A DNA stretch of 64,000 bases, from NCBI RefSeq assembly GCF_015143595.1, contig NZ_WYEU01000001.1:434001-498000 (forward strand), read 5' to 3'. Shown in pieces: positions 2,253 through 44,518 of this stretch (positions within the stretch are counted from its first letter, which is position 1; each line of letters opens with the position of its first letter). The notes under the pieces are model-generated. The model made no database searches. It saw only the letters and a list, made by a program, of their open reading frames with translations, and was not told where the DNA came from. Source of the stretch: Sneathiella sp. P13V-1. GTDB taxonomy: Bacteria > Pseudomonadota > Alphaproteobacteria > Sneathiellales > Sneathiellaceae. The position numbers and the translations under genes are program-made.

Positions 2253-2822
2253 CTATCTGTTTGCGCCGGGCACCCAAAGGACGTCTTTTGTCCCTTTGCC
2301 ATTAAGATATCGCCCGATAACAAACAGAAAATCCGAAAGACGATTTATGTAACTTATTGAAATTGAATTTATATTTTCGATTTCAGACAAGGAAACCATG
2401 CGCCGCTCTGCTCTGCGGCAAACTGTCCTAGCATGATGCAAATGGGCAGAAGCGGCAGAACCACCCGGCAGAATAAAGGAATTGAGGGTGGAGAGTTCAC
2501 TATTTAGCGAATCAATTTCTGCCTCCAACCGGTTCACCTGATCCTGCACAATCCGCAGAGGTGGATATTTGGGATTCTCTTCCTCCGGTGTACAAAGATC
2601 AGCCCCGAGATCAAAAAGATCGTTCTGAATACGGCTTAACATAGCATCCGCATCTGGCAATTCGGATGTATGAAGGCGGGCAACACCAACAATGGCGTTC
2701 AGCTCATCCACATCGCCATAAGCCTCAACCCGCGCATCGTCTTTCGCTACACGCGCGCCATTCCCAAGAGACGTCTGCCCCTTGTCACCACCACGGGTGT
2801 AGATTTTCGTCAGTTTTACCAT
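2253..2822 (-). CDS. ATP:cob(I)alamin adenosyltransferase, PduO type
   Basis: 189 residues, typical of PduO/MMAB-type corrinoid adenosyltransferases. The N-terminal ATP-binding signature TRGGDKGQTSLGNGARVAKD, the conserved EAYGDVDELNA, and the C-terminal FILPGG ... RTVCRRAERRMVSL followed by YINRLSDFLFVIGRYLN are all present. The enzyme transfers the 5'-deoxyadenosyl group of ATP to cob(I)alamin to make coenzyme B12. Two adenosyl-B12 users lie in this window, ethylmalonyl-CoA mutase (11.8 kb) and NrdJ (36 kb). It ends 200 bases before etfB and follows a small membrane protein 6 bases upstream. This gene order (twin-TM protein, adenosyltransferase, etfBA, hbd) is common in alphaproteobacteria. 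Confidence 0.95.
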   Translation of the reverse strand: MVKLTKIYTRGGDKGQTSLGNGARVAKDDARVEAYGDVDELNAIVGVARLHTSELPDADAMLSRIQNDLFDLGADLCTPEEENPKYPPLRIVQDQVNRLEAEIDSLNSELSTLNSFILPGGSAASAHLHHARTVCRRAERRMVSLSEIENINSISISYINRLSDFLFVIGRYLNGKGTKDVLWVPGANR

Positions 2823-2828
2823 GCTTTT

Positions 2829-3023
2829 CTATTCCAAACCGAACCAAAGTGCGATCAGGATGAGCGCAACAGTAATCGCCTGCATGATAATTCTAAGACG
2901 CATTAACTTGTTGCTGTGCTTGCGGTTAAACTCCCCTCCCTTACCCATGGAGAGGACACCGATTAAAACAACAAGAAAAGTTGCTGCCATTGCGGCAATA
3001 ATGAGATAATTAAACATGCCCAT
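2829..3023 (-). CDS. Twin transmembrane (HIG1-like) small membrane protein
   Basis: 64 residues with two hydrophobic helices (about residues 5-25 and 43-62) separated by a basic loop, GGEFNRKHSNKLMRLRI. This fits the alphaproteobacterial twin-transmembrane protein family distantly related to HIG1, whose mitochondrial members associate with respiratory complexes. The N...SNKLMRLR loop is the family hallmark. It is 6 bases upstream of the adenosyltransferase gene, so the two are likely cotranscribed. Its role in bacteria is not established. Confidence 0.8.
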   Translation of the reverse strand: MGMFNYLIIAAMAATFLVVLIGVLSMGKGGEFNRKHSNKLMRLRIIMQAITVALILIALWFGLE

Positions 3024-3089
3024 TCAAATAACACAGTTTTCCCTCCCGGCAAACAGCGGGAGCCTGTTTCTAAGTGGTAATTTTGTGAA

Positions 3090-4262
3090 ATGACATTCGA
3101 CATAATCATTATTGGCGGCGGCGTTGTTGGCGCATCCATAGCTTACTTTTTGACCAAGAATGCAGCCTCTGATTTGAAGGTCGCAGTCGTTGAGAAAGAC
3201 AGCAGTTATCAATATGGCTCCACCGCCCGGTCAGCAGGTGGCATTCGCCATCAGTTTTCAACACCTGAAAATATCCGCATTTCACAATTTGGGACCGAGT
3301 TCCTGAGAAACATCACAGAACATCTGTCAACGGATGGCACAAAGGTGGATGTATCTTACAATGAAGGTGGATATCTCTTCCTCGCGTCCAATCAGAACAT
3401 CCCGATCCTCTATAATAACAATACCATTCAGCGCCGCGAAAATGTGGATGTAGCCCTAATGGATCCCGATGACTTAAGCCGCGCGTTTCCCTGGATGAAT
3501 GTTGGGGATCTGGCTGGCGGATCACTTGGTCTTTCCGGCGAAGGGTGGCTTGACGCTTATGGACTGAACCAGGCGTTTCGCAAAAAAGCCATTCAACAAG
3601 GGGCCACTTTCTTAAAAGAAGAAGCGCTTTCCCTCGAAATGGACGGAATTAAAGTTACAGCTATTAACCTCTCGGAAAGCGGGACCGTTAAAGCGGGTAC
3701 TTTTATTAACGCCGCCGGCGCACGTGCAGATGAAGTTGCCAAATGGGCAGGCATTGATCTGGATGTCCGGTCCCGCAAAAGATATGTTTATTCCTTCTCC
3801 TGCCGAACTGAAATCCCCGATTGCCCGCTGACAGTTGACCCAAGTGGCGTGTATTTCCGCCCCGAAGGTCATCAGTTCATTTCAGGTTGCTCTCCTGAAG
3901 CTGACAATGACCCTGACTGCACCGACTTTGAAGTGGATTATGGCTGGTTTGAAGAACATATCTGGCCCGTTCTGGCAAATCGCGTGCCCGCATTTGAAGC
4001 CATCAAAATGGAAAATGCCTGGGCAGGTCACTATGCCTATAATTTGTTGGATCAAAATGTCGTTCTTGGCCCTCACCCAGAGGTTACCAACTTTGTCTTC
4101 GCCAATGGCTTTTCGGGTCACGGATTGCAACAGGCCCCTGCTGTTGGCCGCGCCATCAGTGAATTGGTTCTGGATGGAAAATATTCCACACTGGATCTTA
4201 ATGTCTTTAACTTCGAGCGCATGCTCACCGGCAAAGCCGTCAAAGAGATAAACGTCGTTTAG
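3090..4262 (+). CDS. FAD-dependent oxidoreductase, DAO family (FOXRED1/sarcosine-oxidase-beta-like)
   Basis: 390 residues. The N-terminus FDIIIIGGGVVGASIAYFLT is the FAD dinucleotide-binding motif of the D-amino-acid oxidase/glycine oxidase superfamily, and the stretch near the C-terminus, ANGFSGHGLQQAPAVGRAIS, is the matching second FAD motif. The SAGGIRHQFSTPENIRIS segment resembles FOXRED1 and sarcosine-oxidase-like members. The substrate is not evident; secondary or tertiary amines and amino acids are usual for the family. It is divergent from the twin-TM/adenosyltransferase pair. No partner subunits (SoxA, SoxD, SoxG-like) are present next to it, so it may work alone. Confidence 0.85.
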   Translation: MTFDIIIIGGGVVGASIAYFLTKNAASDLKVAVVEKDSSYQYGSTARSAGGIRHQFSTPENIRISQFGTEFLRNITEHLSTDGTKVDVSYNEGGYLFLASNQNIPILYNNNTIQRRENVDVALMDPDDLSRAFPWMNVGDLAGGSLGLSGEGWLDAYGLNQAFRKKAIQQGATFLKEEALSLEMDGIKVTAINLSESGTVKAGTFINAAGARADEVAKWAGIDLDVRSRKRYVYSFSCRTEIPDCPLTVDPSGVYFRPEGHQFISGCSPEADNDPDCTDFEVDYGWFEEHIWPVLANRVPAFEAIKMENAWAGHYAYNLLDQNVVLGPHPEVTNFVFANGFSGHGLQQAPAVGRAISELVLDGKYSTLDLNVFNFERMLTGKAVKEINVV

Positions 4263-4370
4263 GAAAATCGAATTTAAACCGACAGCCCCTCTATAGATTC
4301 CGACCTATTGTTGAAAAACCTTACTCGATTAATACATAAAGAGGAAATAACAAGCGAAGGAGGGTCGGAA

Positions 4371-4625
4371 GTGGGGCACATAGGTGAAGGTATTATGCGT
4401 ATCGTTACGTATTTGATCTTCGAATTGTTACTTCATAATTTTCCTGGCTTCACACTTGGCGCGTTCGTCGGTGCTCTTCAATGCGGATTATTCTTTGTCT
4501 TCGATTTACCAGAAAGCGATATTGTTATTGGAGCAATGATGTTCACCTCTATGGTAATCTCTGGCATCCTCTGTGAATATGCCCGGCGATGCATGTCGAC
4601 GGACCAACGCCAAAACACGCAATAG
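4371..4625 (+). CDS. Hypothetical small membrane protein, 84 aa
   Basis: The preferred start is the GTG at 4371, which has an excellent ribosome-binding site (AAGGAGGG, 4357-4364) six bases upstream. A TTG at 4308 would add 21 residues but has no such site. The 84-residue product has two hydrophobic segments (roughly residues 8-40 and 50-66) and a polar tail, ARRCMSTDQRQNTQ. I do not recognise a family. It sits 13 bases upstream of the tautomerase gene and may share its transcript. Confidence 0.6.
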   Translation: MGHIGEGIMRIVTYLIFELLLHNFPGFTLGAFVGALQCGLFFVFDLPESDIVIGAMMFTSMVISGILCEYARRCMSTDQRQNTQ

Positions 4626-4638
4626 AGAAAGTTGTAAA

Positions 4639-4836
4639 ATGCCAGTCGTTAGAATTGAAATGTTTGCGGGCCGCGATGCGGAAACAAAGCAAAAACTGGT
4701 TAGAGAAATGACCGATAGCATGGCGCGCCTTACGGGGTGCTCCCCTGAAAGCGTCAGCGTCATTATCACTGATGTGCCTAAAGAAAACTGGGGACTTGGC
4801 GGTGAACTTGCCTCTACCAAATTTCCGGATAAATAA
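4639..4836 (+). CDS. Tautomerase family protein (4-oxalocrotonate tautomerase-like)
   Basis: 65 residues starting at the ATG at 4639 (MPVVRIEMFAGRDAETKQKL), the usual length of the small 4-OT-type tautomerases. After loss of Met1, Pro1 would be the catalytic base. Earlier in-frame starts would bury this proline and are rejected. The C-terminal part, SVSVIITDVPKENWGLGGE, matches the family pattern, including the conserved WG. Members tautomerise 2-hydroxymuconate or related enols; no aromatic meta-cleavage genes lie nearby, so the substrate is unknown. Confidence 0.85.
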   Translation: MPVVRIEMFAGRDAETKQKLVREMTDSMARLTGCSPESVSVIITDVPKENWGLGGELASTKFPDK

Positions 4837-4853
4837 ATCTCTCTAGCAGAAGC

Positions 4854-4897
4854 GCTCACTTATTTTTTCCAATGTATCTCAAGATACATAAGTGAGC
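4854..4897. other. Nested inverted repeats between tautomerase and DUF4142 genes
   Basis: An outer perfect 10-base inverted repeat (GCTCACTTAT at 4854-4863, ATAAGTGAGC at 4888-4897) encloses and slightly overlaps an inner perfect 8-base repeat (ATGTATCT / AGATACAT, 4872-4889) with a 2-base centre. The two structures share two bases, so they would compete if transcribed. The outer stem lacks a trailing T-run on either strand. It could be a weak terminator for the tautomerase gene or an operator for the DUF4142 gene. Confidence 0.45.
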
Positions 4898-4947
4898 CTT
4901 CCATCTCGCTATTCCTAAGGCATCCCGATGTTTTAAGGATTAGAAAG

Positions 4948-5481
4948 ATGAAAAAACTCTACGCACTCACCCTCCTCTGCTTCCTCCCCTTTGTTACTCT
5001 TGCACCTACAGTGTCGCAAGCAGGTGGGCTGGATGATGAGACCATTTTTGCGATTTTCGATCAGGCGAATATGGCGGATATCGCGACAGGGCGGCTCGGC
5101 TTAAAGAAAAGCACAAATTCCAAAGTTCGAATGCTGGCCACCATGGTTGTAAAAGACCATTCAGCGGTTCAGCAAATGGGCCGGGATATTGCCTATAAAT
5201 CAGGTATGCTCGGAACCCCGCCAGCGGACGATAAATCCTGGGAAAATCAGGCGGCGGCGCTTGCAAAGCTGGATAAACTGGAAGGTGCCGAATTTGATAA
5301 AGCCTATGTGCTTTACGAAATCGCTTACCACACTGCGGTTATTGACGCGATCAACACAACTTTGCTACCCGCCATTAAGAGTGCAGAATTTAAAGGCATC
5401 GTTCTGAAAGTCCTGCCCGGATTTGAACATCATCTGGCGGAGACCAAGCGGGTCGCAGATGAAATGGGACTTAAATACTAA
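4948..5481 (+). CDS. DUF4142 domain-containing exported protein
   Basis: 177 residues. The first ~25 form a Sec signal peptide (MKKLYALTLLCFLPFVTLA with cleavage near SQAGG). The rest fits DUF4142, a ferritin-like four-helix fold: FAIFDQANMADIATGRLGLK, MLATMVVKDHSAVQQMGRD and HTAVIDAINTTLLPAIKSAE mark the helices. The DH dyad and the alternating E/D/H residues recall metal-binding positions, but no function is established for the family. It precedes the Crp/Fnr regulator by 65 bases, with a probable terminator between them. Confidence 0.8.
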   Translation: MKKLYALTLLCFLPFVTLAPTVSQAGGLDDETIFAIFDQANMADIATGRLGLKKSTNSKVRMLATMVVKDHSAVQQMGRDIAYKSGMLGTPPADDKSWENQAAALAKLDKLEGAEFDKAYVLYEIAYHTAVIDAINTTLLPAIKSAEFKGIVLKVLPGFEHHLAETKRVADEMGLKY

Positions 5482-5493
5482 CAAGGTGGTGGC

Positions 5494-5530
5494 GCTGGCC
5501 GGATCTGCCCTTTAGTCTGGCCAGCAACCT
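5494..5530 (+). terminator. Possible terminator after DUF4142 gene
   Basis: A 7-base inverted repeat (GCTGGCC 5494-5500, GGCCAGC 5519-5525) with an 18-base loop is followed by AACCTTTT. The stem is GC-rich but the T-run is short and interrupted, so termination may be partial and allow read-through into the Crp/Fnr gene. Confidence 0.45.
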
Positions 5531-5546
5531 TTTAAAAGGGGCGCAA

Positions 5547-6191
5547 ATGACATTAGAGAACGAACTTTCAGAAAGTGGGCGAGAGCTTTACCACTCCCGC
5601 CTGATCACAAAAAAAGTTAAAGCCGGTCAGGCAATTTTGGATAAAGGCGACACCGTATCCGGGGCGTATATCGTCCAAAAAGGCCGCTTACGTGTCTACA
5701 CCTTAAGCGAACAGGGACGTGAAGCTACGCTTTACAATATTGGACCGGGGGAGACCTGCATCCTTGCCATCAACAGTCTGTTCAATGAATTTCTCTACCC
5801 CGCTTGGGTTATCGCCGATGAAGACACCGAAATTGGTGTTCTTCCGGGAAACATCTTCCGGGATCTCTTCCGAAGTGAAGCGGTTATTCAGGACACAACT
5901 ATTAAAGCGCTCTCTTCAACTGTGTTTGGATTGATGACCCAGCTGGAAATCCAGCACGCACAAACCGTCAAACAAAAGCTTGCCGGATATCTGCTTCGAA
6001 GCGCCTCTCCAGAACATGTGGTTGAGGTTACCCAGCAGAAAATCGCAGATGATTTGGGATCGTCCCGGGAATTTGTGGCTCGGCAAATGGCCGCACTCGT
6101 TCAAGATAATCTGGTCAAAACCTCCAGAGGAAAAATTGAGATCCTTAATCCGCGTAAACTTGGAAAGTTAAGTGCAAGCGAAGAGAATTAG
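5547..6191 (+). CDS. Crp/Fnr family transcriptional regulator
   Basis: 214 residues. Residues ~15-130 form the cyclic-nucleotide-binding beta-roll (ILDKGDTVSGAYIVQKGRLR, TLYNIGPGETCILAINSLF), and residues ~145-205 a winged helix (QQKIADDLGSSREFVARQMA) followed by a basic wing, KTSRGKIEIL. Only one cysteine (in GETCIL) is present, so the four-cysteine iron-sulfur cluster of true FNR is absent. The ligand is unknown. It is followed at 88 bases by the BrkB-like gene on the same strand. Confidence 0.9.
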   Translation: MTLENELSESGRELYHSRLITKKVKAGQAILDKGDTVSGAYIVQKGRLRVYTLSEQGREATLYNIGPGETCILAINSLFNEFLYPAWVIADEDTEIGVLPGNIFRDLFRSEAVIQDTTIKALSSTVFGLMTQLEIQHAQTVKQKLAGYLLRSASPEHVVEVTQQKIADDLGSSREFVARQMAALVQDNLVKTSRGKIEILNPRKLGKLSASEEN

Positions 6192-6279
6192 AATCTATCG
6201 CTCTTGTCTTTGACCTTTAAGTACCGTTAAGCTGCGCCAGTTGAATTGTTCTGCTAAAGAAGAAATCAAAAGGGGCGGC

Positions 6280-7131
6280 ATGGGCAATATTATTAAGGAC
6301 ATCCTGCTGGATATTCTGCGTCATTTTGCGCGGCGAAACTGTCCGCGTATGGCGACTGCTTTGAGTTACCAGACATTGCTGGCCATTGTGCCGCTGTTTA
6401 TCCTAGCCATCTCCCTTTTGACCTATGTAGATGCGTTTTACACCTTGCAGGAAGACATCCTGTTTTTCCTGTTCGACAACTTCCTGCCGGGCACAATCGC
6501 CAATGTGTATGACATGTTGCAGGATCTGGTCTTGAACGCCAAACAACTCACTTTTGTTGGTTTGGCAGGGCTCGCGGTTACAGCGGTTCTCTTGTTTTTG
6601 GGGATTGAGGATAGTTTTCGTGAAATCTGGCGGGTAAACTCAACGCGAAATATTTTTGTGCGTTTGTTTGCCTATCATTTTTTCATTGTCATTGGTCCCA
6701 TTGCCTTGTCTTCAAGCCTGACATTGGTGACGTGGCTGTCTTCCCTAACCGAAGAAGCAAGTGGCATTTCCTTTGAAGGGATTGCCCCCTATTTCAATTT
6801 TGTTCTGCCCTTCCTTTTAAGTTTTGTGATCCTTTTCAGCCTCTACAAACTTGTGCCTGCACAAAAGGTATATTGGACACATGCTGGTATTGGTGCCGGG
6901 ATCGCCGCGTCCCTTTTTGTTTTAGGCAAGCAGATATTTGGCTATTACCTGCTTCTTTTTCCGGGGTATGAGTTGATTTACGGGGCGTTGGCCATCTTGC
7001 CGCTTTTTCTGGTTTGGCTATATGTCAGTTGGTTAATGGTTATGCTTGGGGCCACCATCACAGCGGTTTTGGGCTTTCACTTAAACGGCAATTTGACACC
7101 GCGTGAAAATCCGATTGAACTATATTCCTAA
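6280..7131 (+). CDS. YihY/BrkB family membrane protein
   Basis: 283 residues from the ATG at 6280, preceded by AAGGGGCGG; an upstream TTG at 6241 is less likely. The family motif RRNCPRMATALSYQTLLAIV (residues ~17-36) and about six hydrophobic helices identify a YihY/virulence-factor-BrkB protein of the inner membrane. Despite an old RNase BN label, the family is not a nuclease and its function is unsettled. Its 3' end overlaps the convergent oxidoreductase gene by 12 bases. Confidence 0.92.
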   Translation: MGNIIKDILLDILRHFARRNCPRMATALSYQTLLAIVPLFILAISLLTYVDAFYTLQEDILFFLFDNFLPGTIANVYDMLQDLVLNAKQLTFVGLAGLAVTAVLLFLGIEDSFREIWRVNSTRNIFVRLFAYHFFIVIGPIALSSSLTLVTWLSSLTEEASGISFEGIAPYFNFVLPFLLSFVILFSLYKLVPAQKVYWTHAGIGAGIAASLFVLGKQIFGYYLLLFPGYELIYGALAILPLFLVWLYVSWLMVMLGATITAVLGFHLNGNLTPRENPIELYS

Positions 7132-35975: not shown

Positions 35976-36012
35976 GCGATCCTAACTGTTTCTAATCACG
36001 AACAGGGTTCCT

Positions 36013-38334
36013 ATGGCGTCTATTGCACCTATTTCGCAACAAATCTGGGATATGAAGTACCGTTTTCGCTCCGCTGATGGGCAGGAGACGGAACGAAGTA
36101 TTGAAGATACGTGGGCAAGGATCGCCCATGCCTTGGCGGAACCTGAAGACGATCCGGATAAGTGGCAGGAAATTTTCTATAAAGCCCTTGAGGATTATAA
36201 ATTCCTGCCCGCGGGCCGTATAGTTGCGGGTGCCGGAACCAAACGCAACGTGACCCTGTTTAACTGCTTCGTCATGGGCAACATCCCCGATGACATGGCA
36301 GGAATTTTCGACAATCTGAAAGAAGCTGCCGTCACCATGCAGCAGGGCGGCGGCATCGGATATAATTTCTCCACCATCCGCCCCAAAGGTGCCCCTGTCA
36401 AAAGCATGGGATCAGACGCCTCTGGCCCGCTTAGTTTTATGGATGTGTGGGACAGCATGTGCCGCACAATCATGAGCGCAGGGTCCCGCCGCGGCGCCAT
36501 GATGGCAACGCTTCGGTGTGATCATCCGGATATTCTGGATTTCATCCGCGCCAAACAAGACCCCGGACGGCTGCGCATGTTTAACTTGTCAGTTCTCGTC
36601 ACCGATGACTTTATGGAGGCGGTTAAATCGGATGGGTCTTGGGATCTGGTATTTGAAGGCACTCATTTCAAAACCCTTCGCGCTCGTGAACTTTGGGACG
36701 AGATCATGCGTTCCACCTATTCATATGCTGAGCCGGGCGTGATCTTTATCGACCGGATCAACAAACGGAACAACCTCTATTACTGCGAAGATATCACCGC
36801 CACCAACCCGTGCGGTGAACAACCCCTGCCTGCATATGGAGCGTGTTTGTTGGGTTCGGTGAACCTTACCCGTTTCGTCAAGGATCCGTTTAGTTCAGAT
36901 GCCGCCCTTGATCTGGAAGCACTGGATGAAACCGTTCGCACCGCCATTCGCATGATGGATAATGTGGTGGATGTGTCCAATTTCCCGCTGGAGGAACAAC
37001 GTCATGAGGCAAAAGCCAAACGCAGGATAGGCCTTGGGATTACAGGCCTTGCGGATGCATTGATTATGTGCGGCGTACGCTATGGGTCGGATGAAGCCAT
37101 TTCCCTCACCCGACAGTGGCTGTCCACCCTACGGAGATCCGCTTACCTCGCTTCCACCGATTTGGCGAAGGAAAAAGGGGCCTTTCCCCTTTATGATGAA
37201 GAGGCTTATTTAAGCGGAGAGACCGTTAAAACGCTGGAGCCTGAAATTCAGGGCGCCATCAAGAAAAACGGGATCCGAAACGCGCTTGTCACCTCCGTTG
37301 CACCAACGGGAACCATTTCCCTGCTCGCCGATAATATCTCCAGCGGGTTGGAGCCGGTTTTCAGTTTTTCCTACACCCGCAATGTTCTGATGCCGGACGG
37401 CACCCGCAAATCGGAAGAAGTGAGCGATTATGCCCTTCGCCTGTTCCGTCGCCTGAACGGTGAAGATGCGCTCCTACCCGACTATTTTGTAGATGCGCAA
37501 ATCCTCACCCCTGAAGATCATGTGAAGATGCAGGCGGTGGTACAGGATTATATCGACAGCTCTATTTCCAAAACCATTAACTGCCCTGAAGATATCAGCT
37601 TTGATCAGTTTAAAGATATCTACATGCAGGCCTATGATCAGGGCTGTAAGGGCTGTACAACCTACCGCCCCAATGATGTGACCGGCGCCGTGTTAGAAGC
37701 GAGCCAAAGCGGTCAGAAGACCGACGAACAGGCGTCCCTACCCTTGGATGAGCCAACCCCTCGCCCCAAAGACAGCTTTGAGGCTGGCGGCGTCGTATAT
37801 ATGACAAGGCCACTTGATCGCCCTGGCACCATTCCGGGACAGACTTACAAGCTGAAATGGCCCGAAAGCAATCACGCCATGTATATCACCCTGAACGATA
37901 TTATTCAGGATGGTCGCCGCCGCCCGTTTGAGATTTTTATCAACTCCAAGAACGTGGAACATTTCGCCTGGACAGTGGCCCTCACCCGCATGATTTCGGC
38001 TGTATTCCGCCGGGGCGGAGATGTGAGTTTTGTTGTGGAAGAATTAAAAGCGGTGTTTGATCCGCGCGGCGGTGCGTGGGTACAAGGGAAATATGTCCCG
38101 TCTTTGCTGGCAGCCATTGGAGATGTGATTGAAACCCACCTGATCCAGATCGGCTTTCTGCCGGAAAAACAATCACCGGATAAGCAAAATTCTGCCCATC
38201 AGGTCATGCCTGTCGGCGGCGCCCCACAAAAGACCGGATTGCAACGCCAATGCCCCGAATGCGGAGAGCTCTCCCTCATCCGAAGCGAAGGGTGTGACAC
38301 CTGTTCGTCCTGCGGATTTTCTAAATGCGGGTAG
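36013..38334 (+). CDS. nrdJ: Adenosylcobalamin-dependent ribonucleoside reductase (class II)
   Basis: 773 residues, a class II enzyme. VTLFNCFVMGNIPDDMAGIF and EDITATNPCGEQPLPAYGAC carry the active-site cysteines, and ALVTSVAPTGTISLLADNIS is a reductase core motif. The C-terminus ends in a cysteine-rich zinc-like tail (QCPECGELSLIRSEGCDTCS SCGFSKCG in two blocks) that serves redox exchange. It converts ribonucleotides to deoxyribonucleotides using a B12 radical, independent of oxygen. The gene stands alone with its own promoter and ends at a palindrome. Confidence 0.96.
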   Translation: MASIAPISQQIWDMKYRFRSADGQETERSIEDTWARIAHALAEPEDDPDKWQEIFYKALEDYKFLPAGRIVAGAGTKRNVTLFNCFVMGNIPDDMAGIFDNLKEAAVTMQQGGGIGYNFSTIRPKGAPVKSMGSDASGPLSFMDVWDSMCRTIMSAGSRRGAMMATLRCDHPDILDFIRAKQDPGRLRMFNLSVLVTDDFMEAVKSDGSWDLVFEGTHFKTLRARELWDEIMRSTYSYAEPGVIFIDRINKRNNLYYCEDITATNPCGEQPLPAYGACLLGSVNLTRFVKDPFSSDAALDLEALDETVRTAIRMMDNVVDVSNFPLEEQRHEAKAKRRIGLGITGLADALIMCGVRYGSDEAISLTRQWLSTLRRSAYLASTDLAKEKGAFPLYDEEAYLSGETVKTLEPEIQGAIKKNGIRNALVTSVAPTGTISLLADNISSGLEPVFSFSYTRNVLMPDGTRKSEEVSDYALRLFRRLNGEDALLPDYFVDAQILTPEDHVKMQAVVQDYIDSSISKTINCPEDISFDQFKDIYMQAYDQGCKGCTTYRPNDVTGAVLEASQSGQKTDEQASLPLDEPTPRPKDSFEAGGVVYMTRPLDRPGTIPGQTYKLKWPESNHAMYITLNDIIQDGRRRPFEIFINSKNVEHFAWTVALTRMISAVFRRGGDVSFVVEELKAVFDPRGGAWVQGKYVPSLLAAIGDVIETHLIQIGFLPEKQSPDKQNSAHQVMPVGGAPQKTGLQRQCPECGELSLIRSEGCDTCSSCGFSKCG

Positions 38335-38351
38335 GGGCATTACGCCCCTAC
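38331..38351. repeat. Palindromic repeat copy A, at the nrdJ 3' end
   Basis: Arms GTAGGGGC (38331-38338) and GCCCCTAC (38344-38351) with the centre ATTAC; two further flanking bases on each side also pair. It overlaps the nrdJ stop codon. The same 21-base element, with three differences, recurs at 41872-41892. There is no T-run, so it is either a transcript-end hairpin or a REP-like dispersed palindrome. Confidence 0.65.
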
Positions 38352-38374
38352 CCAAGCATATTCTTACAAGACGT

Positions 38375-38875
38375 TTAAGCCTTCAAAGAAGCGCCTTGTG
38401 GCTGATCTTTAGCTTGTTGCCCCGATTGTTTCTGAGCGATCAAGTGATCCAGAGACAGGCTTCCTGGTCCTTTGGAGATAATGGCAAGGGAGAGCGCCAT
38501 CCATCCAAGGTGGGTTGAGAGGAAAGCATCTGGATAGACGAAGATCTGAATGACCAGTGTCATAAAGAAAAGACCAAGTGCCGCAAAGCGCGTGGCAAAC
38601 CCGAACAGAAGCATTAATGGGAGAATATGTTCTGCATAGGTTGCCAGTGGAACCAAAAAGTCCACGGAGAAGAAGGGAAGTTGATACTCCTCTTCGAAAA
38701 GGAAATAGGTGTTGTCGGTAATGGTCAAAAAGTCAGTGACTTTCGTACGTGCGGACACCCAGAAAATACCGGCAAGTCCAAGACGCAGTGACAAATTGAC
38801 CAGACTGTCTGGAATTTTAGACATCAAAGCGATGATGCCTGTGGTGGCATTATGAATAAAGCTGGAAGCGCTCAT
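38375..38875 (-). CDS. DoxX family membrane protein of bufferin cluster
   Basis: 166 residues from the ATG at 38875 with AGAGGAG upstream. Four hydrophobic helices and the motif LRLGLAGIFWVSARTKVTDF (DoxX), with TYAEHILPLMLLFGFATRFA. It is 23 bases downstream of the bufC-like gene. DoxX proteins are regularly the last gene of DUF692-type bufferin operons, where they may supply quinone-linked redox chemistry; that role is inferred. Confidence 0.87.
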   Translation of the reverse strand: MSASSFIHNATTGIIALMSKIPDSLVNLSLRLGLAGIFWVSARTKVTDFLTITDNTYFLFEEEYQLPFFSVDFLVPLATYAEHILPLMLLFGFATRFAALGLFFMTLVIQIFVYPDAFLSTHLGWMALSLAIISKGPGSLSLDHLIAQKQSGQQAKDQPQGASLKA

Positions 38876-38898
38876 TTTAATTCTCCTCTTGCCGGGTC

Positions 38899-39612
38899 TC
38901 AAAGTGTCAGGAAACCCAGGTTCAGGTAGTTGATAAAAGCGCCGATCTTCACGGCGACTTGTTCTTCATCTTCAATTTGTTGCAAGTAATTTACGAAAGG
39001 CGCGCCTTCTAGAATTTCCGCGAAACATTCCAGTTCGTCCTCAGGAACAATTACCTGTTGAATGTCATCCTCCCCCTGCCAAACGGCAACGGTTTCCGCT
39101 TTCCAATCCGCGATTGGTGCGGGGGTCTCTTGCTGGTGATTTGCCCAGATGGTTCCCACTGGATAAGGGGAGTGCAGCAAGGTCGCCCCTTTTGAAATCA
39201 CAGCTGGAAAGTTAATTGCCTGCAGAATTTCATCTTCCGAAGAAATCTGGTGGGGCAGTAATGCGATGACCGTTTTCGCGGTCGCACGTGCCCATTCCAG
39301 CCTCGCGACATCTGCAAGATAGGGAACTTGCTGAACAGGCTCGAACCCTTCAAGGAACTCGGCAAACCGCTCCCCATATATCCCCATCACTGGGGAGGTT
39401 GGTGGGATTTGAGTTGCATATTCCTGCACTAAAGCGTCAAAAAACTCGGGCCCAACAAGTTCTGCCGTCACGGGAAATTGCTCAGTCAGGACGGCGATCA
39501 GACTCGAAAAGTAGTTACTTCTATAGGTGTTAAACCTGCCCCCAGTGTTGACGACATCGTCAGGAGTGTTCGCACCCAAATCCGTGACTGCATTGGCAAA
39601 GGCTTCTATCAT
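38899..39612 (-). CDS. bufC: BufC/HvfC-like MNIO partner protein (DUF2063 N-terminal domain)
   Basis: 237 residues. The N-terminal half has FNTYRSNYFSSLIAVLTEQF and ELVGPEFFDALVQEYATQIP, the DUF2063 pattern, and the C-terminal half is a mixed domain that contains LLHSPYPVGTIWANHQQ. These proteins bind the MNIO enzyme and present the precursor peptide. It overlaps bufB by four bases (ATGA). Confidence 0.87.
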   Translation of the reverse strand: MIEAFANAVTDLGANTPDDVVNTGGRFNTYRSNYFSSLIAVLTEQFPVTAELVGPEFFDALVQEYATQIPPTSPVMGIYGERFAEFLEGFEPVQQVPYLADVARLEWARATAKTVIALLPHQISSEDEILQAINFPAVISKGATLLHSPYPVGTIWANHQQETPAPIADWKAETVAVWQGEDDIQQVIVPEDELECFAEILEGAPFVNYLQQIEDEEQVAVKIGAFINYLNLGFLTL

Positions 39613-40502
39613 TGGAACCGCTCTTTCGCTGCATCAATGAGAAGCTGAGCAGCGCTCACCTCATTGAGCAGATCACCTAAGGGCGGCACGTTGTTATCCC
39701 GCTCAATCAATGTTGGGCATGGTCCGATTTTCGACAGAAGCTCGCAATAAAGTGTCCAGACAGGCTCCACAACCTCAGAACCGTGAGTATCCACAAGATA
39801 CGAATTACCGTTGTCGTCTTCGGATGCCTCATGTCCGGCCAAATGAATTTCGCCCACCGCTTCAACGGGGATGCGAGACAACCAGTCTTTCGTATCCCAC
39901 CCATGATTTTGGGCAGAAACATAAAGGTTGTTTACATCCAGAAGTAGACCGCAGGAGGTCTCATCCACCAGCTCGGCGATAAAGTCAGCCTCAAACATGG
40001 TATCTGATTGAAAGCGCACATAACTGGATGGATTTTCCACCAACATGCGTGTTCCAAGAATCTGCTGAACCCGATCAATGCGATCCGCAAGATGATACAA
40101 ACGGCGCCGATTATAAGGGATGGGAAACAGATCGTTGTAATAAACCCCGTTATGGCTTGACCAGGCGATATGTTCTGAAAAGCTGCCGGGTTGAATGGTA
40201 TCAATCAGATGTTTCAAACGTCTGAGATGATCCTTATCGAGAGGGTCTTCCCCGCCCAAGGAAAGCGCAACGCCATGAATGGACACAGGCCAGATTTTTG
40301 AAATGTCTTTTAACAATTCCAACTGCGGGCCACCATCCATAAAGTTCTCGGCGTGAACTTCCACAAATTGAATTTGATTGGGGTTGTCCCGAAGCCCGGG
40401 AAGGTGTTCACGCTTCAGGCCAACCCCAACACCAAATGGCAGCCCCGACCGGATCGTGGGGTTGAGAGTCAGATCACCGATATCAATGGGCTTGCCGTAC
40501 AT
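39609..40502 (-). CDS. bufB: MNIO-family (DUF692) multinuclear iron oxidase BufB
   Basis: 297 residues, typical of DUF692. The TIM-barrel metal ligands are visible: VEVHAENFMDGGPQLELL, VSIHGVALSLGGEDPLDK, MLVENPSSYVRF, LLLDVNNLYVSAQNHGW, EIHLAGHEASEDD, LVDTHGSEV and LIERDNNVPPL. MNIO enzymes use two or three iron ions to modify cysteines in a RiPP precursor, in bufferins to thiooxazoles. The precursor gene is 2 bases upstream. Confidence 0.93.
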   Translation of the reverse strand: MYGKPIDIGDLTLNPTIRSGLPFGVGVGLKREHLPGLRDNPNQIQFVEVHAENFMDGGPQLELLKDISKIWPVSIHGVALSLGGEDPLDKDHLRRLKHLIDTIQPGSFSEHIAWSSHNGVYYNDLFPIPYNRRRLYHLADRIDRVQQILGTRMLVENPSSYVRFQSDTMFEADFIAELVDETSCGLLLDVNNLYVSAQNHGWDTKDWLSRIPVEAVGEIHLAGHEASEDDNGNSYLVDTHGSEVVEPVWTLYCELLSKIGPCPTLIERDNNVPPLGDLLNEVSAAQLLIDAAKERFQ

Positions 40503-40504
40503 GG

Positions 40505-40801
40505 TTATTTCTTCACTTCTTTAAAGGCTGCAAGCTGACCGAAGCCAGTTGGCGAAGTGGGGGATTCAATCGTTGTGCAGGTACCCTGTGGAACTAGTTT
40601 CCAGGCGTTTGTCTGATAGTCTTTCTTGGAAGTCCCTGCACAGGAGGTGCCTGGGCCTGCGGAACAATCGTTATGTCCTGCGAGAGAAATACCATAGCAC
40701 TTCTCTTTTTTGGCCCGAGCTTCTGCTGAGTCAGTCACGGCAAGACCCGCGGCAACTGTAGCAAGGGCGGCTGAAATAATCATCGTCTTCTTCATGCTCA
40801 T
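40505..40801 (-). CDS. bufA1: Bufferin-type metallophore precursor (BufA1/DUF2282 family)
   Basis: 98 residues. A Sec signal peptide ([20 protein letters not shown], cleavage near AEARA) is followed by a short cysteine core with four Cys at positions 35, 46, 54 and 75 ([44 protein letters not shown]). This matches the DUF2282 pattern KCYG...NDC...SCAG...GTC. In described bufferins the MNIO complex converts some of these Cys into metal-binding heterocycles and the peptide is exported to buffer copper. Here the cognate enzymes follow directly downstream. Confidence 0.92.
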
Positions 40802-40839
40802 TGTCTTAATCCTTTCGTTTCTTGGAAACCGGGTTGTCG

Positions 40840-40865
40840 GTGGCCCGGGTGGTCGCCCGGGCCAC
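40840..40865 (-). other. Perfect hairpin between YHS gene and bufA1
   Basis: A perfect 10-base stem (GTGGCCCGGG 40840-40849, CCCGGGCCAC 40856-40865) with a 6-base loop lies in the 81-base gap. There is no T-run on the minus strand. It may tune expression between the YHS gene and the bufferin precursor, for example as a processing or stability element. Confidence 0.6.
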
Positions 40866-40882
40866 GTAAAGCAATCAAAAGA

Positions 40883-41392
40883 TTAGTTGGCGTTCAGAGA
40901 AGCTGGTGTCTGGTGCTTAAGTTCTGGCCAGTAGTCGTCAGCTGTCTGGATGTTTTCATTAAGGTTACGGTTCCAGGCTACAGAAACGTCTTTGTTCACG
41001 TTGAGGTACAGTTTTCCATCAACGATTTTCCATACATTTGGATCACCATCGAGTTTTTTACCAAGGGCTGTACCCATTGCGCAGAAGCCACCATATTGCG
41101 GCAGGTATTTTTCTGGGTTCGCGATAAACGCTTTCATGTTTTCCGCGCTGGCGAAGTAGTAGTTACCGCCAGTGTGCTGAACAGAAAACTTCTTCATGCC
41201 TTTTTGCGGGCCACCGGATTTGAAGTAAGCAACCGGATCATAACCCTGCATCGCCAGGAACTGCTCATCTGTATTCACGGCAGAAGTTGCGTTATCAACA
41301 ACCGCGTAAGATGGGGAGCTGAGGGTCACAGTCGCTGCAGCCATAGTCAGACCAATTGCTGCAATCAAAGAACGTTTAGACAGTTTGTTCAT
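40883..41392 (-). CDS. Exported YHS domain-containing protein
   Basis: 169 residues from the ATG at 41392 with GGAG upstream; earlier in-frame codons lack a ribosome-binding site. A signal peptide (MNKLSKRSLIAAIGLTMAAA, cleavage near SPSYA) precedes a YHS domain: QGYDPVAYFKSGGPQKGMK, FASAENMKAFIANPEKYLP and YGGFCAMGTALGKK, with a single Cys at 104. YHS domains are linked to metal, notably copper, handling. It lies 81 bases upstream of bufA1 on the same strand and is probably the first gene of the operon. Confidence 0.88.
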   Translation of the reverse strand: MNKLSKRSLIAAIGLTMAAATVTLSSPSYAVVDNATSAVNTDEQFLAMQGYDPVAYFKSGGPQKGMKKFSVQHTGGNYYFASAENMKAFIANPEKYLPQYGGFCAMGTALGKKLDGDPNVWKIVDGKLYLNVNKDVSVAWNRNLNENIQTADDYWPELKHQTPASLNAN

Positions 41393-41871
41393 TTTCAAAA
41401 TCTCCAATTTATAAAACAGACCAAAGTTGAGGGGGTCTGGTGTAACTCTCTGCTGTTTTGCTGTTGCCCCAGATAGAACGCTCACCAGAAAGGTCAGAAA
41501 TTCAACCGAAACAACAAACGGGCGTCACGGCCCTGTTTAAAATCAGCACAACATTAACAGATCGGTAAATGTCAGTTAGGAACGAAGTGCCAGTCAATCA
41601 ATAGGGAAATTGATTTTTTTTTGAAATATTCTCAAAAATACACCAAATTACGGTGAAATATGGCGGTTTTCTTGAACTTTCACGTTTATAAATAGGTTTA
41701 CGTATCGGTAACGTTAAAATCAAATAAGCGTTATCGGCGCGTGATTATATGAGAAGAATAGAGCAGTACGCCGGCAGATCGGCGCGCATAATCATTTCCA
41801 AAAGGATGGAAGAGCCCTGCTTTCAGGTGAGGGCAAGAACACCTGAAGAGATTTTGAAGGAGCAAATCAGG
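41393..41871. other. 479-base intergenic region between YHS gene and CDF transporter gene
   Basis: No convincing gene is present. It should hold the promoter of the YHS-buf operon (minus strand). AT-rich, with a T9 run at 41613-41621 region and partial repeats of ATCGGTAA (41561 and 41705 areas). A plus-strand open frame from 41749 reaches into the transporter gene and is probably not coding. Confidence 0.5.
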
Positions 41872-41892
41872 GTAGAGGCGTTACGCCTCTAC
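41872..41892. repeat. Palindromic repeat copy B, at the CDF gene 3' end
   Basis: Arms GTAGAGGCG (41872-41880) and CGCCTCTAC (41884-41892) with the centre TTA. It overlaps the stop codon of the transporter gene. It differs from copy A at 38331 in three of 21 positions. There is no T-run on either strand. Confidence 0.65.
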
Positions 41893-42501
41893 GTGCCGGT
41901 ATTCCTGTGCGGCTTGGGTAAGGATCTGCACGGCGGACCAGAGGAAAAGCCCCGCCATAATTCCGGCGACGATTAAGTCAGGCCACGCGGTTCCGGTGAT
42001 TGCAACACCACCTGCGGCCAACATGACCGCCACATTACCGATGGCATCGTTTCGGCTGCACAGCCAGACGGAGCGCACATTTGCATCCCCGTCTTTATAT
42101 CGGACAAGGATCAAGACACTTGCCATATTGGCGGCGAGCGCAAGAAAGCCGATACCGCCCATAAGCGGCGCATTTGGCACCCCAAGGACCAGCACCTGAT
42201 AGGCCGTGGAGCTGAAGACCCAAAGCCCCATCAAGGCAAGGGAGCCGCCTTTAAACAAGGCCGCCAAGGATCTTGCCTTCACAGACATCCCAATAACAGC
42301 AAGGCTTATTCCGTAAGTTAAGGTGTCCCCCAGAAAATCGAGGGCGTCTGCCTGTAAGGCTTGCGATCCGGCAAGGGCACCCGCAGCCATTTCAACGGCA
42401 AACATGATGGCGTTTATGGCAATAACGATCCACAAGGCCCGGCGAAACCCACCTGAGGCACCGTCAAATTTTGGCTCGTTCTGACAGCAGCTTCCCGCCA
42501 T
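41881..42501 (-). CDS. Cation diffusion facilitator-type metal transporter
   Basis: 206 residues with about six transmembrane helices. Helix-2 motif QADALDFLGDTLTYGISLAV and helix-5 motif CSRNDAIGNVAVMLAAGGVA are CDF metal-site patterns. The N-terminus carries a Cys pair (AGSCCQNEP). The usual C-terminal cytoplasmic domain (~80 residues) is missing, as in a short CDF subgroup. It exports a divalent metal such as Zn, Cd or Pb. It is divergent from a MerR regulator, with a MerR-type promoter between them. Confidence 0.88.
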   Translation of the reverse strand: MAGSCCQNEPKFDGASGGFRRALWIVIAINAIMFAVEMAAGALAGSQALQADALDFLGDTLTYGISLAVIGMSVKARSLAALFKGGSLALMGLWVFSSTAYQVLVLGVPNAPLMGGIGFLALAANMASVLILVRYKDGDANVRSVWLCSRNDAIGNVAVMLAAGGVAITGTAWPDLIVAGIMAGLFLWSAVQILTQAAQEYRHVEA

Positions 42502-42542
42502 TTATCTACTCCAGCGCACTTTAATAATATCTAGGAGTATCT

Positions 42543-42573
42543 TATGTAATATCTACAGTAACTATAGGTTCAA
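42543..42573 (-). promoter_or_regulatory. MerR-type metal-responsive promoter and operator for the CDF gene
   Basis: On the minus strand a -35 TTGAAC (42568-42573) and a -10 TACATA (42543-42548) are separated by 19 bases, the long spacer typical of MerR-controlled promoters. The spacer holds the dyad CTATAGTTACTGTAG (42553-42567), one mismatch from perfect. Confidence 0.75.
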
Positions 42574-42583
42574 GAGAAAAATC

Positions 42584-43021
42584 ATGAAATATGAGCATAC
42601 CATCGGTCAGGTGGCGAAATCTGCGGGCTGCAAAGTACAAACCATCCGGTACTACGAACAAATCGGCCTGCTGCCCGCGCCCATCCGCTCAGAAGGCAAT
42701 CAGCGGCTCTACACCGATCATGATATTCACAGGCTTTCCTTTATCCGCCATGCCCGCGACCTTGGCTTTCCTCTTGATGCCGTGCGGGAGCTGATCAGCA
42801 TCTCTGACAGCCCAGATCACGCCTGCGATACCGCCGATGAAATCGCTGCCAAACAACTCGCCGATGTCCGCGCCCGCATCGAACGCTTGCAAGCGTTGGA
42901 AAAAGAACTCAGCCGAATGCTGGATCACTGCAAAGGCGGGAAAGCATCTGATTGTCTGGTTCTGGAAACGTTAAGCGACCACAGCTTATGCGTGACAGAA
43001 GACCATAAGAACCCTGGTTAG
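42584..43021 (+). CDS. MerR family metal-responsive transcriptional regulator
   Basis: 145 residues. N-terminal HTH (YEHTIGQVAKSAGCKVQTIR YYEQIGLLP across two blocks) and a long dimerisation helix are typical of MerR. Metal-ligand Cys lie in SPDHACDTADE and in LDHCKGGKASDCLVL, resembling the CadR/ZntR/PbrR subgroup. It activates the divergent CDF gene by the adjacent operator when metal binds. The exact metal cannot be told from sequence. Confidence 0.92.
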   Translation: MKYEHTIGQVAKSAGCKVQTIRYYEQIGLLPAPIRSEGNQRLYTDHDIHRLSFIRHARDLGFPLDAVRELISISDSPDHACDTADEIAAKQLADVRARIERLQALEKELSRMLDHCKGGKASDCLVLETLSDHSLCVTEDHKNPG

Positions 43022-43159
43022 GAAGAAGTTTAACAGCAGCCTTAGAATAATTTATCACGGCTGCCAGTAACTTTACATAATAATATACTAATACTTGCCC
43101 GGAGCCTCAATCTTTAGTAATATTTAAAATAATAAAATACGACCTAAAAGGAGGCTGAA

Positions 43160-44446
43160 ATGAAAAGATTTTTTGCCGTTTTAGTAGTTTTTGCGTCGGT
43201 TACTATTATACCCCAACAATCAAAAAAAGCTGTCGCACAAGAAATTCCATCAGCGGCAGCTGCAAGCATGGTGTTGGATGAACTTTTTAAGAAATTAGAT
43301 TTACTCATTGAAACAGCCCGCTCCGATGGAGAGTATTTGTTGGCAAGCGCTGGCTTAGAAGCAAAAGAGGCCCTAAAAACCTGGAAAGAAGTAAACAATG
43401 AACTTTTAGATACAGCTTTTTCAGAGTTAGATAAAGCAAGTCAGGATAACTTTTCAAGAGCTCAAAAACTTGTTATCGATGCGAATAATAGCATTGGCAG
43501 TAATATAGAATTAGCTCAACAAATTACAGACTCTGCAAATCAAATTCTAGCAAGTATACCAACTCAGATGAGAGCTCATGTTTTAAGGTATTATCCTCGC
43601 ATTATGCCTCCACAAACAGGAAAAGAGCTAATTATTAGAATAAGAGGGGTGAATTTGGACGAAGCTGACCCCATCCTTAACTTAGCAAACGGCAAAGCAC
43701 AACGAACTCTTACAGGTCCTTTAGAGGCACAATTCAAAATTCCGGCATCTGAGTTGCCTGTCGATCAAACTCAAATAAAAATGCATTCTTTAAAATTGAC
43801 TTTGAGTCCTCCTTCAAGCTCATGGTGGAAGAGAATTTTTGGTGGCAAAGACAATATTGAAAGAGAAATAACTGTTTTCTCTCTACCGAAAATTCTAGCG
43901 AGTTTCACTTTGAATGGAGATAGAAAATATAAAACGAGAATAGAACGAGAATTTACACGGAATCTTGGTCAATTTAAAGCGTCAAATAGACGTATCTATA
44001 AAATTGCAAAGCCAGATAAAGGCTGGAAATGGGATCTAAACCAGGCTTTCACCAAAATTCAAGGGCAAGGGGAGTCTGGCAGATGTGAGGGGGTAGATAT
44101 GAATCAATCCACAGAGGATGGAGTTTCATTTTTTGCACATCTCGATAGAATTAATAAGTGGAATCATCAGGGGCCGGGTTATGTAAATTGCTCTTTAAAA
44201 GGTAAAATTTATAGAGTCGTTTCCGAAACGGATACCTTTGCAACTCAATCAGGTCAACTTTCGTGGACACAAGATAAAGTCCTGAAACTACCTTCTGATT
44301 TTAATAAATTTCAATTAAACATAACAAAATTTGATGGTGTCAAAAGATCTTTTACCAATACCGGAAGCGATCAGTTTTTCGGTGTACAATTACAAGGAGA
44401 TAGAATCCTGATTACTCCAAAGATCCCTAAGGATATTGTCAACTAG
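43160..44446 (+). CDS. Hypothetical exported protein, AT-rich gene of foreign composition
   Basis: 428 residues with a signal peptide (MKRFFAVLVVFASVTIIPQQ, cleavage near AVAQE). The mature N-terminal part (about residues 30-135) is a predicted helical, coiled-coil-like region. Residues ~140-240 look beta-rich (GKELIIRIRGVNLDEADPIL, an Ig/IPT-like pattern), and residues ~250-428 are a second beta-rich domain with the only two Cys (309 and 344). No family is recognised. Base composition is strikingly AT-rich: the line 43921-43980 has 18 G+C of 60, against 38 of 60 at 42661-42720. That points to horizontal transfer. The GGAGG site at 43150 region supports the start. Confidence 0.8.
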   Translation: MKRFFAVLVVFASVTIIPQQSKKAVAQEIPSAAAASMVLDELFKKLDLLIETARSDGEYLLASAGLEAKEALKTWKEVNNELLDTAFSELDKASQDNFSRAQKLVIDANNSIGSNIELAQQITDSANQILASIPTQMRAHVLRYYPRIMPPQTGKELIIRIRGVNLDEADPILNLANGKAQRTLTGPLEAQFKIPASELPVDQTQIKMHSLKLTLSPPSSSWWKRIFGGKDNIEREITVFSLPKILASFTLNGDRKYKTRIEREFTRNLGQFKASNRRIYKIAKPDKGWKWDLNQAFTKIQGQGESGRCEGVDMNQSTEDGVSFFAHLDRINKWNHQGPGYVNCSLKGKIYRVVSETDTFATQSGQLSWTQDKVLKLPSDFNKFQLNITKFDGVKRSFTNTGSDQFFGVQLQGDRILITPKIPKDIVN

Positions 44447-44518
44447 CGACTCTACCTCAGTAAAATTTACAGATACCCGGAAACTATGCAGAGGAAATTA
44501 AGAAACTCCTAATACAGC

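Follow-up and report, generated by a model that had tools for sequence, protein, structure and literature searches.

Within a 64,000-nucleotide stretch of the genome of Sneathiella sp. P13V-1 (contig NZ_WYEU01000001.1, positions 434,001 to 498,000; hereafter the window), a minus-strand run of five genes, yhs-bufA1-bufB-bufC-doxX (41392-38375), encodes a Buf1 bufferin cluster headed by an exported-looking YHS protein. The placement of YHS before bufA recurs across many bacterial families, and the arrangement is therefore far beyond chance. Where a regulator recurs beside these YHS genes, it is an RclR-like AraC protein or a TetR protein. We suggest that the operon is a periplasmic copper-buffering unit induced by thiol oxidants, in which YHS would serve as a single-thiol accessory, and we would give this proposal an even chance of being correct.

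Coordinates and family matches confirmed the five-gene run (Table 1) and agree with the original prediction: a Buf1 bufferin operon whose first gene encodes an exported-looking YHS protein. BufB scored 356 bits against NF050167 (cut-off 310) and 338 bits against PF05114, of which it is the sole match in the genome; genome-wide, DUF2282 and MNIO proteins number one each and NF041384 proteins three. BufC and DoxX fell below the cut-offs of the HvfC (53 against 142 bits) and HvfX (47.6 against 80 bits) models. The N-terminus of BufA resembles a Sec signal peptide (signal peptides in the operon were judged by eye only). Its cysteines are at the positions originally given, and all four (C35, C46, C54 and C75) are invariant in an alignment of 17 precursors. 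The family matches of BufA, BufB, BufC and DoxX, together with these invariant cysteines, identify the bufferin part as a plain Buf1 cluster. The bufB and bufC genes overlap by 4 bases, the yhs-bufA gap measures 81 bp and the other gaps are short.

A YHS gene at the head of such an operon had been regarded as unusual; the counts reveal a recurrent arrangement instead. YHS lies 5' of bufA on the same strand at 8 of the 10 DUF2282 loci in the window's family, and at 11 further loci from six other families. Among 387 genomes sampled from the class, DUF2282 was present in 141, the YHS family in 119 and both in 62, against 43 expected (uncorrected for kinship); in at least 14 of these 62, drawn from seven families, the recognised gene preceding bufA on its own strand was YHS. 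A sample of 396 genomes from the phylum, which overlaps the class sample, gave 129 and 119 holders, 68 genomes with both (39 expected) and adjacent genes in at least 6 of the 68. Both adjacency figures are lower bounds: G085 and G313 are unassigned for the class, as are several multi-copy genomes for the phylum. For comparison, with 2 YHS and 1.2 DUF2282 genes in a 4-Mb genome and a reach of 1 kb, YHS-bufA adjacency would have a rough chance of 0.0003 per genome.

Named records were scanned with an alignment of linked YHS (those followed by bufferin genes) as the query. Bufferin genes stand behind YHS at 16 of 80 loci (the best 80 of 579 relatives), a count in which, as in the others, same-genus loci are not independent and which includes L173, the G020 locus, left out of the trees described below. 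At 15 of the 16, bufA comes next among the recognised genes and lies within 500 bp; at L120 doxX intervenes. Genera represented include Sandarakinorhabdus, Deefgea, Marinobacter, Cognaticolwellia, Glaciecola, Ningiella and Motiliproteus. Several variants of the arrangement were found. At L102 (2621-6551) the order is bufA-yhs-bufA-bufBC-doxX, with YHS sandwiched between two bufA genes; doxX adjoins yhs at L120 and L149; and at L078, L122 and L228 the stretch fetched holds yhs-bufA-doxX and no bufBC. The minimal form is seen at L078:4006-5368, where modification would need an enzyme encoded elsewhere. Genome G627 carries two yhs-bufA loci, L228 with doxX only and L229 with bufB and bufC; an RclR-like gene stands divergent at both. 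Downstream of doxX, no family occurred in more than three of 51 proteins (51 of 64 listed; short reading frames dropped).

The YHS protein scored 148.5 bits against NF041384 (cut-off 70) and narrowly missed the gathering score of Pfam PF04945 (29.5 against 30.3 bits). The metal ligands of YHS/TRASH domains are reported as an Asp or Cys and three Cys (PMC4626032). Judged by eye against these ligands, the window protein keeps the Asp (D52) and lacks the three Cys, and its sole Cys sits away from the canonical places. Because three of the four ligands are absent, canonical metal exchange, as in the earlier idea that YHS receives or delivers the metal of the modified peptide, is doubtful; binding through the single Cys may still occur. 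That Cys belongs to a G102-x-C104 motif which is invariant in 19 and 13 aligned sequences covering bufferin-linked and unlinked YHS. A review of the selenoproteome lists the YHS family with a GxU motif in rare members (PMC13188914), and a position that tolerates selenocysteine suggests thiol/selenol redox or soft-metal chemistry. An AlphaFold model of YHS (mean predicted local distance difference test score 79.9) is confident for the domain. A fold search with this model yielded nothing beyond ciliary chains (9d2f, 9fqr) and stretches of low score, none of them an informative solved relative. In these two PDB entries, ciliary adenylate kinase 9 and a CFAP chain hold several segments that match the YHS profile.

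The genes next to YHS point to a particular kind of regulation. Upstream of linked YHS, AraC/Cupin_6, TetR_N and LysR were found in 7, 5 and 4 of 58 proteins (58 of 66 listed; short frames dropped). Neighbours of unlinked YHS gave AraC/Cupin_6 (9), TetR_N (4) and DUF1348 (3) among 100 proteins (100 of 123 immediate neighbours listed, with 13 related roseobacter loci excluded earlier and short frames dropped). In gammaproteobacteria the gene divergent from yhs is often of the AraC/Cupin_6 type, and RclR was the best NCBIfam match for all eight AraC proteins scanned, six beside linked and two beside unlinked YHS (E 1e-22 to 3e-31). Two cysteines are conserved in these proteins, C87 in all 11 aligned sequences and C24 in 10 of them, and the match coordinates place C87 near model position 89. 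The redox cysteines of RclR are reported to be Cys21 and Cys89, and both RclR and NemR to sense hypochlorous acid (HOCl) through Cys (PMC7464077).

Within 2 kb upstream of YHS, 18 of 38 linked genes have such a regulator (13 RclR-like, 5 TetR), as do 19 of 76 unlinked ones (11 RclR-like, 8 TetR). At bufferin loci without a head YHS the count is 1 in 51, made up of 0 of 31 from the same class and 1 of 20 (L248) from other classes. The same-class control comprises 31 of the 32 unlinked bufferin loci of the BufB tree (L115 left out; L087 and L088 have a farther, opposite-strand YHS), and the 20 other-class loci were hand-picked. Five further bufferin loci without YHS (L232-L236) were not counted, one of which gave a weak TetR match of 26 bits. 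Sub-threshold regulator matches in the scans of bufferin loci scored 32.1, 25.9 and 27.6 bits, and also 51, 28 and 27 bits. Restricted to alphaproteobacteria, the comparison is 7 of 20 linked loci against 0 of 31 without a head YHS (Fisher 0.0007); five of the seven come from one genus, so kinship is not removed. The original prediction had noted a metal-responsive MerR regulator beside the operon. The recurrent RclR-like and TetR neighbours point away from a MerR-type answer to metals and towards stress by thiol oxidants or electrophiles. A cluster at L226:3623-8730 comprises genes for TetR, a DUF1348-like protein, an apparent flavoprotein disulfide reductase and YHS (the DUF1348 and reductase labels were assigned by eye), with no bufferin genes in the stretch; from its gene content it looks like an oxidant/electrophile regulon.

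In the window's own lineage the candidate switch is of the TetR type. Upstream of yhs lies a TetR-type dyad (Table 1) whose exact site (G000:C1:475554-475569) is one of only two places in the 3.7-Mb genome; the reversed-pattern control gave none. Upstream of yhs, G005 and G009 have kept the dyad as well. In G005 yhs is flanked by a divergent TetR gene, whose orthologs in G009 and G015 are themselves preceded by the dyad, 13-14 bp ahead of the gene start. Because of these latter sites, the dyad is probably the operator of the G005-type TetR. A TetR of a second type is encoded divergently from yhs in four other members of the genus, and one Cys is common to all seven TetRs aligned. A perfect copy of the dyad is also found upstream of an unlinked YHS in Falsiruegeria (L129:5810-5825); the operator may therefore accompany YHS and not the bufferins. 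At L199:851-2441 an exact GATC dyad is flanked by another TetR gene on one side and a PhzF-like gene on the other (both labelled by eye).

Gene content and order, the recurrence, the conserved Cys, the dyad and the regulator families are read from sequence, and on this basis we propose the following sequence of events. A thiol-attacking oxidant or electrophile, as in hypochlorous-acid-like stress, would release the Cys-bearing TetR repressor in the window lineage, or in gammaproteobacteria would activate the RclR-like AraC protein instead; induction is inferred from gene position, the dyad and the conserved Cys. BufB and BufC would then turn the two central cysteines of BufA into thiooxazoles, and the modified peptide would be exported to buffer copper in the periplasm, as is known for the family; both thiooxazole formation and copper buffering are reported for relatives (PMC12452194, PMC13097082). 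YHS, likewise exported, may act as an accessory periplasmic thiol through its invariant Cys, either binding and handing over Cu(I) or being redox-active, and DoxX may act in the membrane. Copper buffering would guard against the combined copper and oxidant damage that accompanies such stress.

Several observations weigh against this proposal. The dyad is present in only three genus members among 34 linked upstream regions, the other 31 lacking it even with up to 2 mismatches allowed. In the window genome no TetR gene adjoins the operon; the ortholog of the G005-type TetR lies at C6:40739-41287 and has only a 2-mismatch dyad upstream, and the second exact dyad (L199, G000:C1 ~685258) adjoins a different TetR gene, so both TetR proteins are candidates for the cognate repressor. 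The RclR-like proteins score 81-109 bits, far below the NF040475 equivalog cut-off of 400, and neither type of regulator is present at 20 of the 38 linked loci. The regulator profiles were built partly from the same loci that were counted, so the NCBIfam RclR test is the independent part of this evidence. At L248 (genome G588, 2820-6866) a divergent RclR-like gene (278 bits) lies about 600 bp before bufA of a bufferin operon that has no YHS. This locus makes a regulator tied to YHS alone less likely, yet it fits oxidant control of bufferins. Most genomes that hold both the YHS and the bufferin families keep them apart, and YHS is also found without bufferins, 76 of the 110 rows of the YHS tree being unlinked in a set that derives from searches using linked YHS.

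A second account invokes shared regulation only. In it, YHS would belong in its own right to an oxidant/electrophile regulon and would have come to head bufferin operons through capture of their genes behind its promoter, without cooperation between the two proteins. YHS is indeed widespread without bufferins and keeps the same kinds of regulator there, as in the L226 cluster, and the linked label changes several times on both trees. On the YHS tree, which has 117 columns only and many unresolved forks, the label needs 12 changes, at least six of them forced by well-supported branches. On the BufB tree, restricted to BufB above 200 bits (32 linked and 32 unlinked rows), it needs nine, at least seven of them forced. 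Window BufB groups with those of Sandarakinorhabdus and alphaproteobacterium PA4 (support 100/98), both from yhs-headed operons. Two distinct YHS lineages head bufferin operons in the window's genus, and a third, with a DGHCA motif, does so in the sister genus. Repeated recruitment or repeated loss of the YHS head is possible. However, the same two families meet repeatedly, with YHS before bufA, beyond what would be expected of a regulon with many members, and one genome has two YHS-bufA loci, one of them with doxX only (L228, L229). We consider shared regulation without cooperation a plausible account, if one on the unlikely side.

Alternatively, this could be an ordinary copper or heavy-metal bufferin operon, with YHS as a metal chaperone or store and regulators that merely react to thiol-attacking metals. 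Buf1 peptides are reported to buffer copper (PMC12452194), and the Buf operons of Caulobacter to answer chromate and cadmium via sigma-F together with NrsF, a protein in which two Cys are conserved (PMC3511200). NrsF (PF06532) was not found in the window's genome, with the Caulobacter control positive, so this form of control does not apply to the window operon. The original prediction also pointed to a CDF exporter and a MerR regulator beside the operon as parts of a local metal-homeostasis island. Both genes are present, as a divergent pair of their own, the CDF gene ending 488 bp upstream of the yhs start. As a conserved unit, the island was rejected: among 171 other fetched loci (L058-L197 and L227-L257, bufferin-linked or not, some without bufferin genes; phmmer, E 1e-5), the window MerR had no match and the CDF protein a single one, at L062 of the same genus, where its gene lies directly behind doxX. 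This near-absence from the 171 loci shows that the island is not conserved. The L062 gene is the only support for a metal island and also counts against oxidant control; with CDF adjoining two loci of the genus (window and L062), a genus-level tie is possible, and a general tie was not seen in the 171 loci. Neither MerR nor CDF being a conserved neighbour, the regulators of YHS not being of the MerR type and the YHS type lacking the canonical Cys, we find such an ordinary metal bufferin operon rather unlikely.

That YHS is an extra substrate of BufB and BufC, modified at its GGFC Cys, would accord with its exported-looking sequence, its place beside MNIO genes, its one invariant Cys and the tandem precursors known in bufferin gene clusters (PMC12452194), but is highly improbable, as the Cys is also invariant in YHS away from bufferins, including those of Bacteroidota, Cyanobacteria and Acidobacteria, and at least three linked loci have no bufB or bufC in the stretch fetched (L078, L122, L228).

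Table 1. Features of the yhs-buf operon and its surroundings (positions in the window).
Feature	Position	Strand	Description	Family match or sequence
yhs	40883..41392	-	169 aa, exported-looking, YHS_seleno-type, single Cys104 (GGFC)	NF041384
bufA1	40505..40801	-	98 aa Buf1 bufferin precursor, Cys 35/46/54/75	PF10048/DUF2282, 88.9 bits
bufB	39609..40502	-	297 aa MNIO (DUF692) maturase	NF050167 MNIO_BufB, PF05114
bufC	38899..39612	-	237 aa DUF2063 partner	PF09836/DUF2063, 72.4 bits, above Pfam cut-off
doxX	38375..38875 (from its ATG)	-	166 aa DoxX-family membrane protein	PF07681, 57 bits, above Pfam cut-off
TetR-type dyad	41554..41569	-	161 bp upstream of the yhs start codon; predicted operator	TTTACCGATCTGTTAA
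Stem-loop	40840..40865	-	10-bp perfect stem in the yhs-bufA gap; fold z-score -3.74 for 40790-40890	
CDF transporter	41881..42501	-	neighbour, not counted with the operon	PF01545, 63 bits
MerR regulator	42584..43021	+	neighbour, not counted with the operon	best model CueR, 116.7 bits, below 147.4 cut-off

Two further features of the window deserve mention. The hairpin in the yhs-bufA gap was considered as a classical terminator and rejected: it has no T-run and did not appear in the terminator scan, and the gap sequence is poorly conserved in G005 and G009. Very stable and not kept in near relatives, the stem-loop might set differing levels of the two products. An Rfam search of 36000-44500 gave zero matches. 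Beside the MerR gene, positions 43160-44446 encode a 428-aa exported-looking protein that matches nothing in Pfam or NCBIfam at E 0.001.

The core of the operon is that of known Buf1 biosynthetic gene clusters (DUF2282-MNIO-DUF2063-DoxX, such as buf of Caulobacter and gig of Cupriavidus and Legionella), with the same four genes in the same order and four conserved Cys in the precursor, whose start here looks by eye like a signal peptide. It differs in its YHS head, in its apparent TetR/AraC control and in the absence of NrsF from the genome. MNIO and DUF2063 proteins are shared with the captophorins, a class of thiooxazole metallophores in which DUF2282 precursors form one of three groups; oxidative and metal stress have already been proposed for this class, and YHS, TetR and AraC are not named in the main text describing it (PMC13097082). 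The RclR regulon (rclABC of E. coli, rclX of P. aeruginosa) resembles the YHS loci in having, next to its target, an AraC regulator with two conserved Cys, which in RclR are redox-active. At the present loci the target is yhs(-buf), the regulators are far below the RclR cut-off and the window's genus uses the TetR type. RclA is reported to be a Cu(II) reductase (PMC7464077, PMC7950407, PMC7527725), so a link between HOCl and copper is already known. Compared with the YHS/TRASH domains of copper ATPases and the M. phlei adenylyl cyclase, the window YHS belongs, weakly, to the same Pfam family; it differs in lacking three of the four ligands, in its other, invariant Cys/Sec (cysteine/selenocysteine) site after the domain and in being exported-looking.

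A DoxX operon with a precursor of another type is present in Haemophilus influenzae. This UPF0276 (MNIO)/DUF2063/DoxX operon is reported to be hypochlorite-induced and controlled by RpoE2, an extracytoplasmic function sigma factor, and is described as a four-gene cluster without YHS (PMC7907618). In Caulobacter, sigma-F is reported to run the Buf operons together with a YedY gene (PMC3511200). The main text of a survey of the MNIO landscape makes no mention of YHS and calls additional conserved genes extremely rare; its rule admits unrelated genes at 10 bp or less only, and the 81-bp yhs-bufA gap therefore fails it. Our searches of the literature, which did not extend to supplements, found nothing linking YHS with bufferins, MNIO or the DUF families. 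The bufferin operon is known and the idea of oxidative stress for the class is not new; within the reach of those searches, the recurrent YHS partner and the RclR-like and TetR regulators are.

We tentatively raise the possibility that YHS of the GxC/GxU type is a genuine and hitherto undescribed component of a bufferin sub-type: a periplasmic thiol, or rarely selenol, that would keep the thiooxazole peptide and its copper as reduced Cu(I), or pass the copper on, in operons dedicated to reactive-chlorine or electrophile stress, with RclR-like proteins or Cys-bearing TetR proteins as switches. The bufferins rank among the largest groups of ribosomally synthesized and post-translationally modified peptides, and a recurrent fifth gene with thiol-switch-like regulators bears on what triggers them and which partners they have. 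The arrangement also provides a first functional setting for exported YHS proteins of the GxC/U family, on whose function the literature found offered proposals only.

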